From contig NZ_JAGRRD010000001.1 of the NCBI RefSeq assembly GCF_018122735.1, positions 3,837,475-3,901,474 on the forward strand: a DNA stretch of 64,000 nucleotides, given 5' to 3'. Origin of the DNA: Azoarcus sp. L1K30 (lineage in GTDB: Bacteria > Pseudomonadota > Gammaproteobacteria > Burkholderiales > Rhodocyclaceae). The notes under the pieces were generated by a model. It saw only the letters and a program-made list of their open reading frames with translations. It did no database searches and was not told where the DNA came from. The position numbers were made by a program, and so were the translations under genes. Below, one piece after another: positions 57,241 to 64,000 of this stretch. How positions within the stretch are numbered: position 1 is the first letter of the stretch; every line of letters starts with the position of its first letter.

Positions 57241-58599
57241 ATGAATGCCGTCAGCAGTGCGCGCCACGGCGCCGCCGAGCGCCTGTTCAAGCGTCTGGTC
57301 GATGTCGACGATGATGCGGCAGAGGTGTTTCGGCCGTCGGCACGCGATTCCATTCCGGGCAATTTCTTTCGCACCATCGGCGCCACCTTCCTGGTCCAGC
57401 TCGGCGATGCGCTGACCGGCCCCAAGATCAGTCTCGTCTGGCTGCTGGGTGCGGTCGGCGCGCCGGCCTACCTGGTCGGCCTGTTGGTGCCGATCCGTGA
57501 GTCCGGCTCCATGCTGCCGCAATTTGCCATTGCCAGTTTCGTCAGCACGTGCCGGCTCCGAAAATGGGTGTGGGTCGGTGGCGCGGTAGCGCAGGCGGTC
57601 GCAGTGGCAGGCATTGGCCTGAGCGCCATGTTTGTCGGCGGCGCGACCGCGGGCTGGCTGATCATCGCGCTGCTGATGGTGTTCAGTCTTGCGCGTGCAT
57701 TCAGTTCGATTGCCGCAAAGGATGTCCTTGCCCGGACCATACCGAAATCTGCGCGCGGGCAAACAAGTGCGTGGGCGGCGAGTGCGGCCGGGCTCGTTAC
57801 GGTCGGTGCGGGCGCCATGCTGGTGTTGAGCCCGGATACACGCCACGATGCCGGCTTTTATGCGTTGATCGTGCTCGGGGCGTCCACGCTGTGGCTGCTT
57901 GCTGCTGCAATCTATGCGCGCATGCGCGAGTCTCCCGAGTCCCCGGACAACAAGGCAGGCGGCGCTGCGACCGCAGGTGCACGGCTGGGGTGCCTGAAGA
58001 CCGACCCCCTGCTGCGGCGTTTCGTGGTCGCGCGCTGTCTGCTGCTATGTACGGCATTGAGTGCACCGTTCTACGTCAGTCTGGGTCAGGCGGCGTTCGG
58101 TTCGCAGCCCCTGTTGTTGGGAGCCTTCATCGCTGCAAGTGGGCTCGCGAGTCTGGTCAGCGCGCCTTTCTGGGGGCGACTCGCCGATCGCTCCAGCCGC
58201 AAGGTGATGATGCTCGGAGCCGGCCTGGCTGCGGCCGCGGGCGTGGCGGCATTTGCCATCGATGCGCTGGGCGAGGGCCGGCGGGGAATGTCGTGGCTGT
58301 TGCCGGTGCTCTACTTCGTGCTCGCCGTTGCCCACCAGGGCGCGCGGATCGGACGCAAGACCTATGTCGTCGACATCGCTTCGGGCAATGAGCGCACTGA
58401 CTATGTTGCCGTCAGCAATACCGTGGTGGGGCTGGTGCTGCTTGGCGCGGGAACCCTGGGGGCGATCGGCGCGGCATTCTCGACGCCGCTGGTCATTCTC
58501 GCGCTGTCGATGCTCGGGCTTGGGGGTGCCTGCATGGTCTATCGCCTGCCGGAAGCGGAGGGGGCGGGCGCTGCGGACCACGGGGCAGCGGAGACCTAG
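57241..58599 (+). CDS. MFS transporter
   Basis: A 452-residue major facilitator with about 12 hydrophobic helices, preceded by a soluble N-terminal tail of about 40 residues. The MFS loop 8-9 motif is visible as APFWGRLADRSSRKVMMLGA. LVGLLVPIRESGSMLPQFAIA near residues 77-97 is characteristic of a poorly studied MFS subgroup in betaproteobacteria. The ATG lies 7 bases after the acnA stop. It converges with the glutamine amidotransferase gene of the next cluster. Substrate unknown. Confidence 0.8.
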   Translation: MNAVSSARHGAAERLFKRLVDVDDDAAEVFRPSARDSIPGNFFRTIGATFLVQLGDALTGPKISLVWLLGAVGAPAYLVGLLVPIRESGSMLPQFAIASFVSTCRLRKWVWVGGAVAQAVAVAGIGLSAMFVGGATAGWLIIALLMVFSLARAFSSIAAKDVLARTIPKSARGQTSAWAASAAGLVTVGAGAMLVLSPDTRHDAGFYALIVLGASTLWLLAAAIYARMRESPESPDNKAGGAATAGARLGCLKTDPLLRRFVVARCLLLCTALSAPFYVSLGQAAFGSQPLLLGAFIAASGLASLVSAPFWGRLADRSSRKVMMLGAGLAAAAGVAAFAIDALGEGRRGMSWLLPVLYFVLAVAHQGARIGRKTYVVDIASGNERTDYVAVSNTVVGLVLLGAGTLGAIGAAFSTPLVILALSMLGLGGACMVYRLPEAEGAGAADHGAAET

Positions 58600-58627: not shown

Positions 58628-59368
58628 TCACGGTGCGGGCTTGCTGCCGGTGGCGCGCCCTGGCCGGGAACTGCGTGTGGAGGACACCGCATCGGCGGCG
58701 GCATGACGACGCGCGCTGTCGACCAGCGCCTTGAACAGGGCGCGGTGGGCGGTCACGGGCAGCAGGAATTCGGGATGCCACTGCACGCCGAGCAGAAAGC
58801 CGTAGTCGGGGTCTTCGATCGCCTGCACGATGCCGTCGAGGTCGCGTCCGCAGACCTGGAGACCGTCGCCGGTGCGGTCGATGGCCTGGTTGTGCAGGCT
58901 GTTGATACGTTGCGTGCCATCGCCGACCAGGCGCGCAAGCATGGAGCCGGCCTCGACGTGCAGTTTTTTCAGCGGCAGCACCGTCCATCGATTCGACGTG
59001 TGGCGACGCCGCGAACGCAGTTCCTGGAACAGACTGCCTCCACGATAGATGTTCAGCAGCTGGGCGCCGCGGCAGATCCCGAGGATCGGAACCCGCCGCG
59101 AGAGCGACGTGCGGATGATCCGCATCTCGAGGGCGTCGCGTGCGGTGTCGTGACGGGGCTCGACCTCGGGTTCGGCGGCATAGAGCACCGGATCGATGTC
59201 ATGACCGCCGGTGATGACGACGCCATCGTAATGGTGGAGGCGCCACCTGTCGCTAGGGCGAATGTGTATCGGTTTGCCGCCATACAGCCGCACCGCGCAG
59301 GCAACGAGGATTCGCGGTCCGAGCGCGCCCTTCTCCGGACCGGTGATCGCGATCAGTGGGTGATCCAC
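58628..59368 (-). CDS. class I glutamine amidotransferase / gamma-glutamyl hydrolase (peptidase C26, PuuD-like)
   Basis: A 246-residue protein with the full catalytic triad: Cys99 in ILGICRGAQLLNIYRG, and His198 and Glu200 in FLLGVQWHPEF. SLHNQAIDRTGDGLQV is typical of PuuD, which hydrolyses gamma-glutamyl-gamma-aminobutyrate. The start is GTG at 59368, inside the last codons of the amidoligase gene (16-base overlap). It is the final gene of a five-gene minus-strand unit. In context it either supplies ammonia or cuts the gamma-glutamyl amide made by the amidoligase. The PuuD substrate should not be assumed. Confidence 0.85.
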   Translation of the reverse strand: MDHPLIAITGPEKGALGPRILVACAVRLYGGKPIHIRPSDRWRLHHYDGVVITGGHDIDPVLYAAEPEVEPRHDTARDALEMRIIRTSLSRRVPILGICRGAQLLNIYRGGSLFQELRSRRRHTSNRWTVLPLKKLHVEAGSMLARLVGDGTQRINSLHNQAIDRTGDGLQVCGRDLDGIVQAIEDPDYGFLLGVQWHPEFLLPVTAHRALFKALVDSARRHAAADAVSSTRSSRPGRATGSKPAP

Positions 59369-60351
59369 GTGCGCTCGACCTCGTCGGCCCAGTCACCGAG
59401 CAGTCGCTCGATCGGGCTTCGCAGTATCTTGCGGTAGCGCTCGCTGCATGCGCGCAGGCGTTCCGGGTCTGCGGCGAGCCGTTCGACCTCGATCCAGTCG
59501 TTCCATGCGCAATGCAGTCCCCAGCTGGGGCGGCTGATCTCGCAGTCGGGGAGGCGGTAGTGGAAGGCCGGGCGTGGCTTGATGCGGGCGTCGGCCGTTG
59601 CACGGCGCACGCGCGGCGCATCCAGCTCGAGGAACAGGGGCAGCAGGTCGAGGGCGCGGTTTCGCGTCGGGTTGGCGTCGAGATAGTCGTCGATCAGCGT
59701 TGCCAGATCCGGACGGTAGTCGGCGTCGAGCACGCGCACGACGTAATCGACGGGAAACGGATCGACGTAGCTCGTGACGCGCCTCGACATGTCGATGTCC
59801 GCGCGCGCGTAGAGCCAGTCGTACAGACACAGGAAGGCCTGCAGATAGGCTGCGATCGTCTTCGCGTCGGTGTGCGGGAGCTCAACGTTCAGCTGCATGC
59901 CGAAGGCGTTGACGAGGCGATCCGACGTCCCTTGAGCGCCCGCCTCGCGCAGATGCGCGATCAGGTCTTCGACCTCTCCCAGGCGTGCCATGGGCATGGG
60001 TGGGCTGACGACCTCGAGCGGTACCAGCGGGGTTGCAAGCCACTTGAGCGCTTCTTCGGTGGATTTGCCAATGCCGCCCGCGAAAGTGTCTTCGTCGTGG
60101 TGCTCGCGGCCCAGTTGTTTCAGGAGTTCGAAGTCCAGTTCGACCAGCCAGTCGCCCGCTGCATCCCCCCTGAGCACCCGCTCATAACGTCCCCGATGCT
60201 CGATGTCTGCGCCGATGGCGTCCGCGACGAGCGTGGCCAGTGTGTCGAGCGTAAAGCCATTCATTTCCAGTTCGACGCCGACCCGACGGGGGCCGCCATC
60301 GGGGTTCTGTGTCAGCGCCGGCTTTCGCAGGGCTCTCTGTTGCTGTGGCAT
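59353..60351 (-). CDS. amidoligase family protein (glutamine-synthetase-like fold)
   Basis: A 332-residue member of the amidoligase family (the PF12224 type), predicted to form an amide bond between a carboxylate and an amine using ATP. The family signature RRVGVELEMNGFTLDTLATL is at residues about 22-41. Further on are VELDFELLKQLG, VSPPMPMARLGEV, LNVELPHTDAKTIAAYLQAF and a C-terminal HCAWNDWIEVERLAA-like segment. The ATG at 60351 follows GGAGGAG by 12 bases. A GTG at 60423 would overlap the upstream gene but adds unconserved residues. No member of this exact type has, to my knowledge, an assigned substrate. The neighbours point to gamma-glutamyl chemistry. Confidence 0.8.
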   Translation of the reverse strand: MPQQQRALRKPALTQNPDGGPRRVGVELEMNGFTLDTLATLVADAIGADIEHRGRYERVLRGDAAGDWLVELDFELLKQLGREHHDEDTFAGGIGKSTEEALKWLATPLVPLEVVSPPMPMARLGEVEDLIAHLREAGAQGTSDRLVNAFGMQLNVELPHTDAKTIAAYLQAFLCLYDWLYARADIDMSRRVTSYVDPFPVDYVVRVLDADYRPDLATLIDDYLDANPTRNRALDLLPLFLELDAPRVRRATADARIKPRPAFHYRLPDCEISRPSWGLHCAWNDWIEVERLAADPERLRACSERYRKILRSPIERLLGDWADEVERTWITH

Positions 60352-60395
60352 TGTTTTCGCACGCTCCTCCGGTTGATGACTTGCTGACCTTTCGT

Positions 60396-60839
60396 TCACG
60401 GCTTGAGTCGGCGATATACCCACGCGGTTTCTCCATCGTCGAGTGTCATTTCAACGCGTTCGTAGCGTATGCCAAGGCGTTCATATCGATCGAGCGCCTT
60501 GAGCCCGGCTGCCGTGACCTCGAACACCACGCCGTCGACCCGTGCTGCAGCATCGGCGACGACATTGAGCCCGTCCGCGCGAAAGCCGGACAATCGCGCC
60601 ATTCGGGGTATTGTCGCGTCGCCGATCACCAGCCAGCGCACCGGGCGGTAGCGGAGCGTGCCGTATGCGAACACGCGATGGGCGTGTGTCGTGTCGATTT
60701 GTGCTAGTCCGGGCGGCGGGGCGTATCCATAGGGGCTCAGCAGCAGGTACCACAGGCAGGCCCCAACGATAGCCGTTGCCGCGCCAGCGCCGGAAATCCA
60801 GTATTCAAGTCTGCGCCAAAACGTATTGCTTCGCCCCAT
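60396..60839 (-). CDS. membrane-anchored gamma-glutamylcyclotransferase-like protein
   Basis: A 147-residue protein with an N-terminal membrane helix (GAGAATAIVGACLWYLLLS, about residues 18-36) and a GGCT/AIG2-like domain. The substrate loop is VFAYGTLRY (YGTLR at 59-63), and the catalytic glutamate is Glu120 in LKALDRYERLGIRYE. Such enzymes release 5-oxoproline from gamma-glutamyl amines or peptides. A membrane anchor is unusual for the family and suggests action at the inner-membrane surface. The ATG at 60839 has GGAGG directly upstream. A longer open frame to 61154 overlaps the next gene and is not used. Confidence 0.78.
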   Translation of the reverse strand: MGRSNTFWRRLEYWISGAGAATAIVGACLWYLLLSPYGYAPPPGLAQIDTTHAHRVFAYGTLRYRPVRWLVIGDATIPRMARLSGFRADGLNVVADAAARVDGVVFEVTAAGLKALDRYERLGIRYERVEMTLDDGETAWVYRRLKP

Positions 60840-60903
60840 ACCCTCCAGGCCTGCGGAAATCCGTCTCCTGATGGACAGGGGAGAAGACGCCAGGGTTCCT
60901 GCG

Positions 60904-61686
60904 TTACGTCTTGATTCGTTTCCGCGCCGTGCCGTTGGCGGGAGCGAGCCAGTCGGCGACCTGCGTCGCGACCCATTCCCCGTCGTCCAGCGGCAGGTCA
61001 TGTCCGGCCGTGGGGTGTTGGCGGAGCGGACAGTCCCAGGCCGCTGCAAGCGCAGCCGAACAGGCCGGGTTGACCAGCATGTCGCCCGCAGCGGCCAGCA
61101 GCAGCATTTCTGCAGCCGGCTTGCGCGGCGGCGCGTGAAAGCGCGCCGCGGCAATCAGTTGGCGCATGGCGTTGCGGGTGGAGACCGGGTGGTCATCGTG
61201 GATGCGGCTCCACTCATCCACGATTGCGGGGTCGTTCGCGTGGTGCCGGCTGGTCAGTTGCAGGATCGCACTCGCATGCCTGCGCGGATCGCGCACCGTG
61301 AGTGCAAGGCGCAGCAGGGGCCAATACGTGTGCGGACGCAGGCGGTGATGGAATGGGCTGAAGGGCCGCATGCTGGTGTTGATGAGCACGCAGCGCGCAA
61401 TATCCTGGGGATATGCGTCCGCCCATGAAACTGCCACCATGGCGCCGAGCGACATGGCCAGCAGGTTGTATGGTGGGGACAGACCGATCCCTGCCGAGCG
61501 CTCATGGGCGAATCGTGCCAGTTGCCGAACGTCGGTCGGGCTGATCTGTCGGTTGAGGTCTCCATTGCCGGGCAGATCGAGCGTCACCACGTCCGCGCTG
61601 GGCAATGTACGGCGGAAGGTGTCGATGAAATGACCCCAGTGACGCTGCTCCCGCGTCAGGCCGCGAAGAAATATCCATGTCGCCAT
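60904..61686 (-). CDS. alpha/beta hydrolase
   Basis: A 260-residue alpha/beta-fold hydrolase. The nucleophile elbow is LLAMSLGAMVAV with Ser79 (a Met replaces the first Gly of GxSxG), the acid is Asp202 in AAAGDMLVNPAC, and the histidine is His229 in TAGHDLPLDDGEWV. The oxyanion region is WIFLRGLTREQRHWG. No signal peptide is present, so it should act in the cytoplasm. The ATG at 61686 lies 4 bases after the M14 gene stop, which makes co-transcription very likely. It could cleave an ester or amide intermediate of the cluster's pathway. Substrate unknown. Confidence 0.82.
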   Translation of the reverse strand: MATWIFLRGLTREQRHWGHFIDTFRRTLPSADVVTLDLPGNGDLNRQISPTDVRQLARFAHERSAGIGLSPPYNLLAMSLGAMVAVSWADAYPQDIARCVLINTSMRPFSPFHHRLRPHTYWPLLRLALTVRDPRRHASAILQLTSRHHANDPAIVDEWSRIHDDHPVSTRNAMRQLIAAARFHAPPRKPAAEMLLLAAAGDMLVNPACSAALAAAWDCPLRQHPTAGHDLPLDDGEWVATQVADWLAPANGTARKRIKT

Positions 61687-61690
61687 CGGC

Positions 61691-62776
61691 TCAGGCGTAC
61701 CAGTGCGCCACTGCCTGGGCGTGGTGTTCGGCGCGCGCGGCCCCCTGAGGCAGCCACTTGTGCGCGCTGCAGGTTGCGCGCGACAGGAAGTCGAGCAGCG
61801 ATACGTGGCGGCGCAGCACGCGTTGCTGCCGATGCGCAATGAGCGGGTTGAACATGCCGTTGCGCGACAGCAGCTGGCGCGGATTCTTCTTGATCCACTG
61901 CCAGGAGCCCATCTCCAGCGTCAGCGGCAGAAAGATCCGCCCCGGTGTGCCGCAGGCGCGCTGATGGAGGTAATCCCACAGATCGCCGTGAGCCAGGTAC
62001 TGGCGGCTCTGGGGTTCGAAAATGTAGGGATGGTGGAGGTGGGTGCGGAAGAACACTTCCTTGAGCGCATGGATTTCGGCGAGATGGCAGAAAGGCGTGC
62101 GCGTATGTGCGTAGGGAAACCAGATGCGGTCGCTGAGACCGAAACCGGAATGGCAGTCTACGGCAAGGGAAAACTGGCGTCCGAGCAGTTCGTCGGCGAC
62201 GGCTTCGGACACCGCCTGGTTCTCGATCTCCATGGCATCGCCCTGGCTGCCGCGGTACCAGGGCAGGCGTGGGCTGATGCGCTGACCGCCGATCATCAGC
62301 GGGACGCGTTCGGACGATTCCAGCGGTGCGTTGCGCATCAGGTCGACACCGTTGGGATTGGCGCGCGTACCCAGAAGCATGCCGCCGGGATTGACGAGCG
62401 GCATGAAGACCAGGCGCAGTGTATCGAGTTGCCGATGGAGCGTGGCGTCCCACTGCAGACGCATGGCAAGGTAGTGCAGATAGGCGATCGCGACATTGGC
62501 ACCGATGCGTTCGAGGCCATGGATGCCGCCGAAGATGCCGATGGCAGGCAGTTCGGGCGCCGGATTGCCGAGCGTGATGGCGTAGATCGGGAGCGGCTGA
62601 CCCGATCGCAGGACGACCGTCCGCATGATGCGCGCTTCGAGATGTTGCGCACCATCGTCGATGATGCGCTCCAGTGCAGACAGTTCGGGAAGCGCAGGGT
62701 GGCTCACTTGCGGTCGTCCGAAGGTGGGTATCCGAGCATAGCGCAGTGGTCGGAAAAATTCTGCGCTCAACGCCAT
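61691..62776 (-). CDS. M14-family zinc carboxypeptidase (DUF2817-like)
   Basis: A 361-residue metallopeptidase without a signal peptide. The zinc ligands are His86 and Glu89 in GGIHGLERIG and His209 in LAVDCHSGFG. The catalytic glutamate is Glu288 in LPLTLEMGSW. The substrate-binding Asn/Arg lie in RANPNGVDLMRN. Cytoplasmic M14 members remove single residues from small peptides or deacylate amino acids, as succinylglutamate desuccinylase does. It is the first gene of the amidoligase cluster. The start at 62776 (MALSAEFFRP) is probable; it has TTAAGG close upstream. Confidence 0.83.
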   Translation of the reverse strand: MALSAEFFRPLRYARIPTFGRPQVSHPALPELSALERIIDDGAQHLEARIMRTVVLRSGQPLPIYAITLGNPAPELPAIGIFGGIHGLERIGANVAIAYLHYLAMRLQWDATLHRQLDTLRLVFMPLVNPGGMLLGTRANPNGVDLMRNAPLESSERVPLMIGGQRISPRLPWYRGSQGDAMEIENQAVSEAVADELLGRQFSLAVDCHSGFGLSDRIWFPYAHTRTPFCHLAEIHALKEVFFRTHLHHPYIFEPQSRQYLAHGDLWDYLHQRACGTPGRIFLPLTLEMGSWQWIKKNPRQLLSRNGMFNPLIAHRQQRVLRRHVSLLDFLSRATCSAHKWLPQGAARAEHHAQAVAHWYA

Positions 62777-63116: not shown

Positions 63117-64000
63117 GTGCTCCTCCCCGCCATCAAGCTTGCCGACAGTGAGCAAACCGTCCCTCGACTGTACCTGATCGGCACGCTTGTCGTAGTCTTC
63201 GCGCTGACGCTGGCGCTGGGAACCTTCTTTTCCTGGCAGCACATCCTCGAGCGCCGCGAGTTGCTCGCGCGCCTGGAAAAGAATGTTGCATCCCAACTCG
63301 AAACCAGGCTGCAGGCGGAGATGAGCTCCGCATTCAGTTACCTCGATTTCACCCGTTCGCTGAGCGACACCGAACTCAGGCGCACCCTGGTCGACAAGGT
63401 CGACTCGGCAATGCAGATCGCCGAGGCTATCCATGCGACCGAATCGGGGCGGCGCCCCGATCAGGAGGTCCGGCGCCTGATCGTGGAGGCTTTGCGAAAA
63501 GTCCGCTTCTTCGACGGGCGAGGCTATTACTTCATCGACGATCTCGAGGGACGTTTCGTCCTGCTGCCGACCGCGCCCCAGCTCGAAGGGCGTCTGCTGC
63601 CCGACAACCAGGACGATACCGGGCGCTACATCATGCGCGGCTTGATCGACGCCGCGCGCGAGCCGGCAGGCAAGGGCTTCTTCAATTACCGCTGGTACCG
63701 TCCCAACACCCGCGGAAGGATGGCGGACAAGCTTGCCTACGTGCGTCACTTCGCCCCATACAACTGGTTGATAGGCTCCGGCGACTACACCGACGAATGG
63801 GACGCAGTGCAGCAGCGTGAAGCCATGCATCGCCTGCGCACCTTGCGCTTTGGAAAAAGCGGCTATATCGGTTTGCTCGACAGCGACGGGCAGGTGCTGC
63901 TGTCGCCATCTGAAGCGGTGCTCGAAAGGATGGCGCCGGGCGCGTTGTCCGCACTGCAGCGTGATGCACTCGCTGCGCTGCACCGCAAGGCGCAGCAAGG
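63117..64000 (+). CDS. tandem-Cache membrane sensor protein, 5' part (runs off window)
   Basis: The first 294 residues of a longer signalling protein. The first membrane helix (LYLIGTLVVVFALTLALGTFFSW, about residues 17-39) is followed by a periplasmic helix and two Cache domains. The first Cache domain has VRFFDGRGYYFIDDLEGRF near residue 129 and FNYRWYRPNTRG; the second starts LRFGKSGYIGLLDSDGQV near residue 243. The frame is open from 63084, and GTG at 63117 is the only plausible start. No good Shine-Dalgarno is visible. The output domain (chemoreceptor, histidine kinase or GGDEF) lies beyond the window. Small ligands such as carboxylates are typical for this Cache type. Confidence 0.75.
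   Translation, partial: MLLPAIKLADSEQTVPRLYLIGTLVVVFALTLALGTFFSWQHILERRELLARLEKNVASQLETRLQAEMSSAFSYLDFTRSLSDTELRRTLVDKVDSAMQIAEAIHATESGRRPDQEVRRLIVEALRKVRFFDGRGYYFIDDLEGRFVLLPTAPQLEGRLLPDNQDDTGRYIMRGLIDAAREPAGKGFFNYRWYRPNTRGRMADKLAYVRHFAPYNWLIGSGDYTDEWDAVQQREAMHRLRTLRFGKSGYIGLLDSDGQVLLSPSEAVLERMAPGALSALQRDALAALHRKAQQ

Follow-up and report, generated by a model that had tools for sequence, protein, structure and literature searches.

A chromosomal GGCT-amidoligase-C26 gene unit in Azoarcus sp. L1K30 and its possible role in making and breaking gamma-glutamyl conjugates

Gene content and the two modules of the locus

In the window, by which we mean the whole 64,000-nucleotide stretch of Azoarcus sp. 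L1K30 that was analysed, we found five tightly packed open reading frames on the minus strand, spanning 58628-62776. These and the adjoining genes are:

57241..58599, plus strand: MFS transporter (MFS_1, E 8.2e-16), candidate transporter of the amidoligase unit
58628..59368, minus strand: Peptidase C26 / gamma-glutamyl hydrolase-type protein, PuuD-like (PF07722 Peptidase_C26, E 5.2e-48)
59353..60351, minus strand: amidoligase, 332 aa from the ATG at 60351 (PF12224 Amidoligase_2, E 4.3e-58)
60396..60839, minus strand: GGCT/GGACT (AIG2-like) domain protein with N-terminal hydrophobic helix, 147 aa (PF06094, E 4e-12)
60904..61686, minus strand: alpha/beta hydrolase (PF12697 Abhydrolase_6, E 4.1e-12)
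61691..62776, minus strand: M14 carboxypeptidase-like protein (PF00246, E 4.2e-17)
63117..63998, plus strand: cache-domain sensor gene, running off the window (dCache_2, E 2.9e-59)

The spacing given in the first-pass annotation, from a 16-base overlap to about 65 bases, agreed with the coordinates: the amidoligase and C26 frames overlap by 16 bases, and gaps of 4, 64 and 44 bases separate M14 from hydrolase, hydrolase from GGCT and GGCT from amidoligase. The active-site residues it had named in the M14, hydrolase, GGCT and C26 proteins were likewise all in place.

That annotation had further taken the five genes for one conserved pathway, in which the M14 protein would trim and the hydrolase finish a gamma-glutamyl amide. 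Such a pathway would fit five consecutive minus-strand genes with gaps of no more than 64 bases, and a search of the hydrolase-GGCT gap gave no promoter- or terminator-like site, so that co-transcription of all five is possible in the host genome. At a Nitrincola locus (L047) an alpha/beta hydrolase also follows the amidoligase, but it is a different one, unmatched by the window hydrolase. Relatives of the window M14 or hydrolase were found in none of the 99 PF12224 loci fetched, and in the phylum sample M14 occurred in 2 of 23 PF12224 genomes (the window's own excluded) versus 15 of the remaining 372. Within the family, 4 of 9 other PF12224 genomes also encoded M14, versus 37 of 189 (p 0.09), at different places: the M14-hydrolase pair and the trio lay about 0.9 Mb apart in one genome (G067), and M14 and amidoligase were on different contigs in three others (G104, G140, G194).

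Elsewhere the pair was kept together. M14 was present in 42 of 199 family genomes and the hydrolase in 41, in 40 of these within 100 bases of M14; the residues H86/E89/H209/E288 of M14 and S79/D202/H229 of the hydrolase were each retained in 21/21 aligned sequences, window included. The cache-domain sensor gene is divergent from M14, and the same arrangement at two same-genus loci (L110, L111) leads us to read it as a mark of the older neighbourhood of the pair. M14 and hydrolase are thus a conserved pair of their own, separate from the amidoligase unit, and two modules, this pair and the GGCT-amidoligase-C26 unit, meet locally here. A conserved five-gene pathway is largely refuted by these observations, and we regard it as highly improbable.

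The amidoligase and its C26 partner

The amidoligase assignment survived a profile search, in which the protein scored 197.5 bits against PF12224 (cut-off 22), the only Pfam profile matched at E values up to 0.1; no NCBIfam model was matched. An in-frame GTG at 60423 is a possible upstream start and would give 356 aa. By profile the protein is not a glutamine synthetase (GS) homologue, and the GS-type partner of the PuuA-PuuD and AtdA1-AtdA2 systems is absent. In the COOH-NH2 ligase superfamily of GS/GCS type, a GxExE motif holds conserved acidic residues of the metal/ATP site. Residues R22, G25, E27, E29, D73, E113, N155, H264 and R266 were identical in all 96 amidoligase sequences; among them G25, E27, E29, D73 and E113 correspond to such a motif as far as sequence conservation goes. 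With an AF2 model of the amidoligase (pLDDT 89.7), Foldseek ranked a plant GCL, YbdK (twice), GS and a predicted Salmonella glutathione synthase first to fifth, all with marginal scores (the best match had E 3.1e-3, probability 0.96 and TM about 0.3, with no E value as low as 0.001). The PF12224 enzyme is probably related to the glutamine synthetase/glutamate-cysteine ligase superfamily. Because these matches were marginal and a sequence search found no solved structure related to the window PF12224 protein, we only infer glutamate as the donor; the enzyme probably ligates glutamate to an amine, with a putative gamma-glutamyl product. The portions of the literature consulted named no assayed substrate for PF12224 amidoligases of the window type.

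The C26 protein had been called a class I glutamine amidotransferase. Its GATase match (50.8 bits) does exceed the cut-off, but the protein is better named a C26 gamma-glutamyl-hydrolase type, given 164.1 bits to Peptidase_C26 (cut-off 20.5). Its best NCBIfam match was the PuuD equivalog NF008471, with 95 bits under a cut-off of 266, and PuuD (6vtv) was second among its solved relatives after 3fij. The triad C99/H198/E200 was kept in 84 of 86 aligned sequences, the other two having gaps. For neighbour counts we used 95 distinct PF12224 loci, and in 85 of them C26 lay on the same strand directly 3' of the amidoligase, with match ends ranging from a 12-base overlap to 182 bases apart. A natural fusion of 564 aa with both Pfam domains was found at one further locus (L029), from a metagenome-assembled genome. 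Amidoligase and C26 are hence a recurring unit across PF12224 loci.

No other partner of the amidoligase is nearly as constant as C26, and this speaks for a rival explanation confined to the cytoplasm, in which an amine would be broken down or detoxified in the manner of PuuA-PuuD or AtdA1-AtdA2: glutamylation would shield the amine during processing, C26 would release the product and GGCT would be incidental. According to the part of the source available, aniline degradation offers a precedent, pairing a GS-like ligase with a GAT-like hydrolase, with toxic gamma-glutamylanilide kept low (PMC11335346). The Nitrincola locus encoded a PuuR-like regulator in the same gene run (153.1 bits against the PuuR cut-off of 211) and a divergent PotA-type ATPase. 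Judged by eye, Salinivibrio loci carried an FAD amino-acid oxidoreductase-like gene about 3 kb off (cluster 30), and at some other loci a gene resembling an aminotransferase lay at about 5 kb (cluster 24). However, across lineages the genes immediately flanking the unit included no recognisable oxidase, dehydrogenase or aminotransferase, and GGCT and GGT recur carrying cell-envelope signals. We consider this explanation quite improbable.

Envelope-side neighbours and the MFS transporter

The GGCT protein matched PF06094 with 47.2 bits (cut-off 22.8), its nearest solved relatives by sequence were AIG2-like proteins, and its catalytic glutamate E120 was kept in 13/13 sequences. GGCT was found within 300 bases upstream of the amidoligase in 10 of the 95 distinct loci and GGT directly upstream in 6; one or the other was present in 16 loci and both together in none. 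GGCT and GGT are thus alternative upstream neighbours, for which the fewest changes on the amidoligase tree were 7 and 3, respectively, and together with C26 they bring three gamma-glutamyl-bond families beside one ligase family. The same-strand GGCT-amidoligase-C26 trio occurred in 5/95 other loci. In 79 of 95 loci neither GGCT nor GGT lay within this distance, and an envelope step is therefore optional at best. GGCT was adjacent in 4 of 9 loci without C26 despite room for it, versus 7 of 85 with C26 (p 0.01, in a test picked after the table had been seen).

The membrane helix noted earlier for GGCT was supported, as an N-terminal hydrophobic helix, by a simple hydrophobicity and charge count, several N-termini in the comparison being those of the longest reading frame. 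The window helix scored only 1.64 and has three K/R before and none after it, and in 11 of 12 GGCTs scored, that of the window among them, K/R were more numerous on the N-flank than on the C-flank (the GGCT of L020 had no scoreable N-terminus and was left out). The protein is thus predicted to be N-in/C-out, which would place its catalytic domain in the periplasm. All six GGTs, each from a metagenome-assembled genome, showed by eye a lipobox-like AC at the end of a hydrophobic stretch, indicating lipoprotein-like signals.

The MFS gene is convergent with C26 at a distance of 28 bases. In the phylum sample it occurred in 14 of 23 PF12224 genomes versus 20 of 374 without PF12224, or by genus in 10 of 18 versus 13 of 194, and in Thiocapsa imhoffii (L027) it lies directly 3' of C26. 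It was absent from 9 of the 23 PF12224 genomes, and 20 of 34 MFS genomes lacked PF12224. M14, with its 2/23 versus 15/372, served as a control for this association, if an imperfect one owing to its other distribution and other E limit. Common ancestry or habitat could explain the co-occurrence; the MFS protein may be an exporter of the putative gamma-glutamyl conjugate.

Peptidoglycan peptide contains gamma-D-glutamyl bonds, and the unit could instead modify the cell wall, the amidoligase adding or exchanging a residue on this peptide and C26 and GGCT/GGT taking it off. A published cassette of RIO-1/LUZ24/phiEco32-type phages, with two amidoligases, one of them a gamma-glutamyl amidoligase, together with an ATP-grasp enzyme, GGCT and an amidotransferase, has been proposed for peptidoglycan modification in the part of that report available (PMC5498523), and a LUZ24-like phage is noted, in a similarly partial source, to carry PF12224 (PMC3890496). 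In phage KZY1-k141_1938105 we confirmed C26 and PF12224 domains in genes about 2.6 kb apart. Some chromosomal neighbours would also suit this explanation, namely a DedA/VTT membrane protein 3' of C26 in 20 of 95 loci (the one that was scanned weakly resembled UptA, an undecaprenyl-phosphate transporter, with 26.8 bits where the cut-off is 300), a UbiA-type prenyltransferase after the amidoligase in Aliidiomarina (L048), and an upstream gene resembling, by eye, the lytic transglycosylase MltF at Porticoccus-type loci (L004-L007). Against it, neither the five genes nor the adjoining MFS and cache genes include ATP-grasp, COOH-NH2_lig or class II amidotransferase; tblastn of the window amidoligase gave no phage match; phage C26 identity was 24-40% among the 30 records listed of 47; and across lineages no neighbouring gene was recognisable as a peptidoglycan gene, most clusters being judged by eye. 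We hold cell-wall modification to be rather unlikely.

Proposed gamma-glutamyl turnover and comparison with known systems

The best explanation, towards which we lean slightly when it is taken as a whole, is that GGCT, amidoligase and C26 form a working unit, perhaps with the MFS transporter, that makes gamma-glutamyl-X in the cytoplasm and breaks it via C26 inside and GGCT or GGT outside. With ATP, the PF12224 enzyme would couple glutamate through its gamma-carboxyl to an amine X, and the coupled C26 hydrolase would strip the glutamate again in the cytoplasm, so that the conjugate would stay low or X be recovered. Any conjugate passing out of the cytoplasm, for which the MFS protein may provide the route, would be cut into 5-oxoproline and X by the tethered GGCT on the periplasmic side of the inner membrane, a post that a lipoprotein-like GGT would take in some other genomes. 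The earlier idea of a gamma-glutamyl-type amide broken by two routes, C26 hydrolysis and GGCT cyclisation, is thereby supported as an inference. Among the neighbours of the unit we recognised no gene specific to an amine, most neighbour clusters again being judged by eye.

A more specific version, possible but doubtful, is a cap-and-uncap system spanning the inner membrane, in which the amine would be masked by glutamate, exported by the MFS protein and unmasked by an exchangeable tethered GGCT or lipoprotein GGT, with C26 guarding against build-up. If true, this might be a general chassis with which an amine metabolite that is reactive or toxic could be exported safely, found across several proteobacterial classes, with which PF12224 relatives are labelled. 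For the proposed turnover in general, the ligase has neighbours of three gamma-glutamyl-cleaving kinds, from which its product class can be predicted, and the natural fusion and envelope signals predict the place of each step. An orphan amidoligase family would thus become amenable to simple assays, from which two of the five genes, M14 and hydrolase, could be omitted.

As judged from sequence, the amidoligase with putative gamma-glutamyl-cleaving partners is a recurring bacterial system. Iyer, Abhiman, Burroughs and Aravind reportedly described PF12224 neighbourhoods in 2009, and the Pfam family note places PF12224 beside a glutamine-amidotransferase-like thiol peptidase in proteobacteria and an Aig2 (GGCT) protein in fungi. 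Compared with the neighbourhoods so outlined, C26-type and GGCT partners here stand together in one trio, GGCT has a membrane helix, GGT replaces GGCT elsewhere and one amidoligase-C26 fusion exists. In the PuuA-PuuD putrescine pathway, a GS-like ligase glutamylates the amine and an amidotransferase-like hydrolase removes the glutamate. Ligation and its reversal would be common to the window unit, PuuA-PuuD and, as far as the available part of the source describes it, AtdA1-AtdA2 (PMC11335346), whereas the window ligase belongs to PF12224 and has no recognised oxidase or dioxygenase partner. Francisella ChaC, which breaks down glutathione and adjoins a periplasmic GGT, likewise belongs to the cyclotransferase superfamily and joins a membrane domain at the N-terminus to a catalytic domain in the periplasm (predicted in the window protein); the window protein, in contrast, is of the GGACT/AIG2 family, and the part of the ChaC report at hand mentions no amidoligase (PMC7340319). 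With the RIO-1/LUZ24/phiEco32 phage cassette, as far as its report was available, the trio shares amidoligase, GGCT and amidotransferase-type genes, whereas ATP-grasp, COOH-NH2_lig and class II amidotransferase belong to the phage cassette only and the window trio is chromosomal and remote in sequence. Phage cassettes of a related kind have already been published.

A local junction of two gene modules

On the minus strand of the window we found five closely packed genes at the positions that the first-pass annotation had given them, as confirmed by open reading frame coordinates and Pfam matches. A transporter gene on the plus strand lay outside that original finding.

G000:C1:3837475-3901474: the window in its own genome (G000)
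61691-62776, minus strand: M14 carboxypeptidase (Pfam M14)
60904-61686, minus strand: alpha/beta hydrolase (Abhydrolase_6)
60396-60839, minus strand: GGCT (GGACT)
59353-60351, minus strand: amidoligase, PF12224 (Amidoligase_2)
58628-59368, minus strand: C26 (Peptidase_C26)
57241-58599, plus strand: MFS gene, convergent with C26 and 28 bases from its end

According to the open reading frame coordinates, the five genes are separated by 4, 64 and 44 bases and then overlap by 16 bases. All catalytic residues named earlier are present and are kept in alignments of relatives, and the amidoligase domain was recovered with an Amidoligase_2 match of 197.5 bits (Pfam cut-off 22). The last gene had been called a class I glutamine amidotransferase. 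Its GATase match does pass the Pfam cut-off, but at 50.8 bits against 164.1 bits for Peptidase_C26, and a C26 gamma-glutamyl hydrolase-type enzyme is the better name. Its best NCBIfam match was PuuD, under the cut-off of that model, and its solved relatives include PuuD (6vtv). A role as an ammonia-donating biosynthetic amidotransferase was set aside because Peptidase_C26 far outscores GATase and the partner ligase would require no ammonia in our model.

The five genes had further been read as one pathway, which the evidence did not support. We screened 99 loci around PF12224 relatives, of which named records supplied 67, the family 9 and the phylum sample 23; they reach about 6 kb to each side where the contig permits. 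Relatives of M14 and of the hydrolase were found in none of these loci by searches with the window proteins, and profile searches agreed; the Nitrincola locus L047 encodes a different alpha/beta hydrolase downstream of the amidoligase, which the window hydrolase does not match. The pair is kept elsewhere: of 199 family genomes, 42 have M14 and 41 the hydrolase, and in 40 of those 41 the two genes share a strand and are no more than 100 bases apart. Exceptions to this tight pairing were genome G100, with a gap of 2.2 kb, and genome G194, with M14 and no hydrolase. Both genes were present in all 21 M14 loci inspected (20 fetched from the 41 other family genomes, and the window), and two genomes of the same genus also keep the divergent cache sensor beside M14. 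The trio of GGCT, amidoligase and C26 lies about 0.9 Mb from M14 in one of these two genomes (G067) and is absent from the other (G115), and in the other family genomes with both M14 and PF12224 (G104, G140, G194) the two genes are on different contigs. M14 was found in 2 of 23 PF12224 genomes versus 15 of 372 others in the phylum sample (own genome excluded; 396 genomes drawn for this search, 398 for PF12224), and in 4 of 9 versus 37 of 189 within the family (p 0.09).

Since the M14-hydrolase and amidoligase loci are kept at separate places, we take the five-gene run to be a local junction of two modules; a conserved five-gene unit is rejected on the separate conservation of the pair and the lack of its relatives at the 99 PF12224 loci screened. 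No promoter- or terminator-like site stood out between the hydrolase and GGCT genes, so the five genes might still be co-transcribed in this species. M14 and the hydrolase form a conserved pair of their own, and the window M14 weakly resembles the murein tripeptide amidase MpaA (22.1 bits, cut-off 157).

The amidoligase-C26 core and its upstream partner

The window amidoligase matched in 97 of the 99 loci, the two others (L108 and L109) being remote PF12224 matches that were kept out of this number and out of the tree, and removal of two repeats (L079 of L054, L085 of L010) left 95. C26 was found in 87 and GGCT in 12 of the 99 loci. Gene maps came from a rough home-made gene finder that missed some C26 genes found by tblastn, and the first round of neighbour clusters also contains opposite-strand shadow frames.

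In 85 of 95 loci C26 sits immediately downstream of the amidoligase and in the same orientation, with match ends between a 12-base overlap and a distance of 182 bases. Both domains are fused in one frame of 564 aa (L029:6007-7698) in a metagenome-assembled genome labelled Arcobacter. Links of PF12224 to C26 and to Aig2 were reportedly described by Iyer and colleagues in 2009. Eleven of the 95 loci encode a GGCT no more than 1.5 kb from the amidoligase: two are divergent and nine have the same orientation, eight of these upstream and one downstream. The same-strand order GGCT-amidoligase-C26 recurred in five other loci (L002, L008, L027, L037, L086), and Marinimicrobium and Thiocapsa imhoffii are cultured relatives with the trio. 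In four loci GGCT was present without C26, which is 4 of 9 C26-less loci with room (L051, ending at a contig edge, excluded) versus 7 of 85 with C26 (p 0.01, in a test chosen after seeing the table).

In six of the 95 loci a gamma-glutamyltransferase (GGT) gene took the place immediately upstream of the amidoligase; one of these assignments was scanned and scored above the NCBIfam cut-off, and the rest were made by tblastn. A GGT listed for L082 in the first clustering was dropped because direct tblastn gave no match. Either GGCT or GGT was found within 300 bases upstream in 16 loci, both together in none, and neither in 79. On a quick amidoligase tree including the window, in which 31 of 93 inner forks are open, GGT needed a minimum of 3 changes, GGCT 7, C26 7 and a VTT-domain gene 8. 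By chance 0.04 GGT adjacencies would be expected in 95 loci versus the 3 changes on the tree, given the two GGT genes of the own genome and an assumed 4500 genes. All six GGT loci, like the fusion in L029, come from metagenome assemblies.

Several other neighbours were observed. In 20 of 95 loci (L046, L049, L053, L055-L061 and others) the gene after C26 encodes a small membrane protein with a DedA/VTT domain; carriers include Methylobacter, Zhongshania and Halochromatium, and one of the proteins was scanned. In 9 of 95 loci (L004, L005, L013, L015, L030, L032-L034, L036) there are BCCT betaine/choline-type transporters at most 1.5 kb from the amidoligase, in mixed orientation. Kineobactrum encodes a class II amidotransferase (GATase_4) immediately upstream of the amidoligase at one locus (L017:5114-5938), and in Aliidiomarina a UbiA-type prenyltransferase occupies the usual place of C26 immediately after the amidoligase (L048:7021-7914), with a relative in L052. 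In Nitrincola (L047:3497-5509) the GGCT-amidoligase run includes a PuuR-like regulator, and a PotA-type polyamine ABC ATPase is encoded divergently; together these hint at a polyamine-like substrate.

Probable ligase fold and predicted location of the steps

An AlphaFold2 model of the amidoligase, built from 54 sequences (53 of the 67 named-record loci and the window), reached a pLDDT of 89.7. A Foldseek search against the PDB ranked a plant glutamate-cysteine ligase, YbdK twice, a glutamine synthetase and a predicted Salmonella glutathione synthase in the first five places, with further glutamine synthetases lower down among unrelated folds. The best E-value was 3.1e-3 at a TM of about 0.3, with no match at or below 0.001, and a profile search found no relative among PDB sequences. 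Nine residues (R22, G25, E27, E29, D73, E113, N155, H264 and R266) were identical in 96 of 96 amidoligase sequences. Weighed against the weak scores, the ranking and the invariant residues make membership in the GS/GCS ligase superfamily likely for the modelled protein. From the cleaving enzymes around it we infer that glutamate donates the acyl group.

At their N-terminus the GGCTs have a hydrophobic helix. Lysine and arginine were more frequent on its N-terminal than on its C-terminal flank in 11 of 12 GGCTs scored (3 versus 0 in the window), although starts were set by the longest frame and N-flanks may be partly untranslated; the sequence of the twelfth (L020) starts inside the helix, and the GGCT of L037, shortened by a contig end, was kept out of the count. 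By the positive-inside rule, such an excess predicts a periplasmic catalytic domain. In each of the six GGTs we saw, by eye, a hydrophobic stretch closing in a lipobox-like AC, preceded in L025 and L031 by a longer N-terminal reading that probably reflects a wrong start. No such segment was seen in the C26 and amidoligase sequences inspected.

Readings of the unit and known systems

On balance we favour, with slightly better than even confidence, a three-gene unit that makes and breaks a gamma-glutamyl bond and is probably split across the inner membrane. A rather unlikely elaboration would have an amine masked with glutamate inside the cell, exported through MFS and unmasked at the envelope. 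The MFS gene was found in at least 35 of 398 phylum genomes, the search having scored the first four candidates per genome so that carriers may be missed. It occurred in at least 14 of 23 PF12224 genomes versus at least 20 of 374 others, own genome excluded (Fisher p 3e-11), and by genus in at least 10 of 18 versus at least 13 of 194 (p 8e-7); both phylum searches gave the same genome handles and were treated as one draw. Within the family it was present in 5 of 199 genomes, 3 of them with PF12224 (own genome included). In Thiocapsa imhoffii it directly follows C26, and no constant neighbour emerged in 20 other MFS loci examined. MFS is a possible transporter of the unit, and shared ancestry or habitat could also explain the association.

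Modification of a peptidoglycan peptide by the amidoligase unit appears unlikely to us. It would fit an MltF-like neighbour, just as oxidoreductase-like neighbours would fit cytoplasmic amine breakdown or detoxification; these, together with TrpE- and aminotransferase-like genes, were named by eye in single lineages and were judged chance or lineage placements. One source places amidoligase, GGCT and amidotransferase genes of RIO-1, LUZ24 and phiEco32-type phages in a proposed peptidoglycan-modification cassette (PMC5498523), and another lists a LUZ24-like phage with PF12224 (PMC3890496). One phage proved on our own scan to encode both a C26 and a PF12224 domain, and a phage tblastn with the window amidoligase gave no match.

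Among the matches listed, papers on amidoligases were genome surveys, prophage gene lists or descriptions of phage cassettes, and no assayed chromosomal PF12224 system was found there, subscription journals lying mostly outside this search. In the putrescine pathway, a ligase and an amidotransferase-like hydrolase make and unmake a gamma-glutamyl amine. The same division of labour is described for aniline (PMC11335346). The make-and-break unit of the window differs from both in its other ligase family and in its third enzyme, predicted to be tethered at the envelope. For such a tethered periplasmic cyclotransferase there is a published precedent in Francisella ChaC, which is described as membrane-tethered and periplasmic, beside a periplasmic GGT (PMC7340319).
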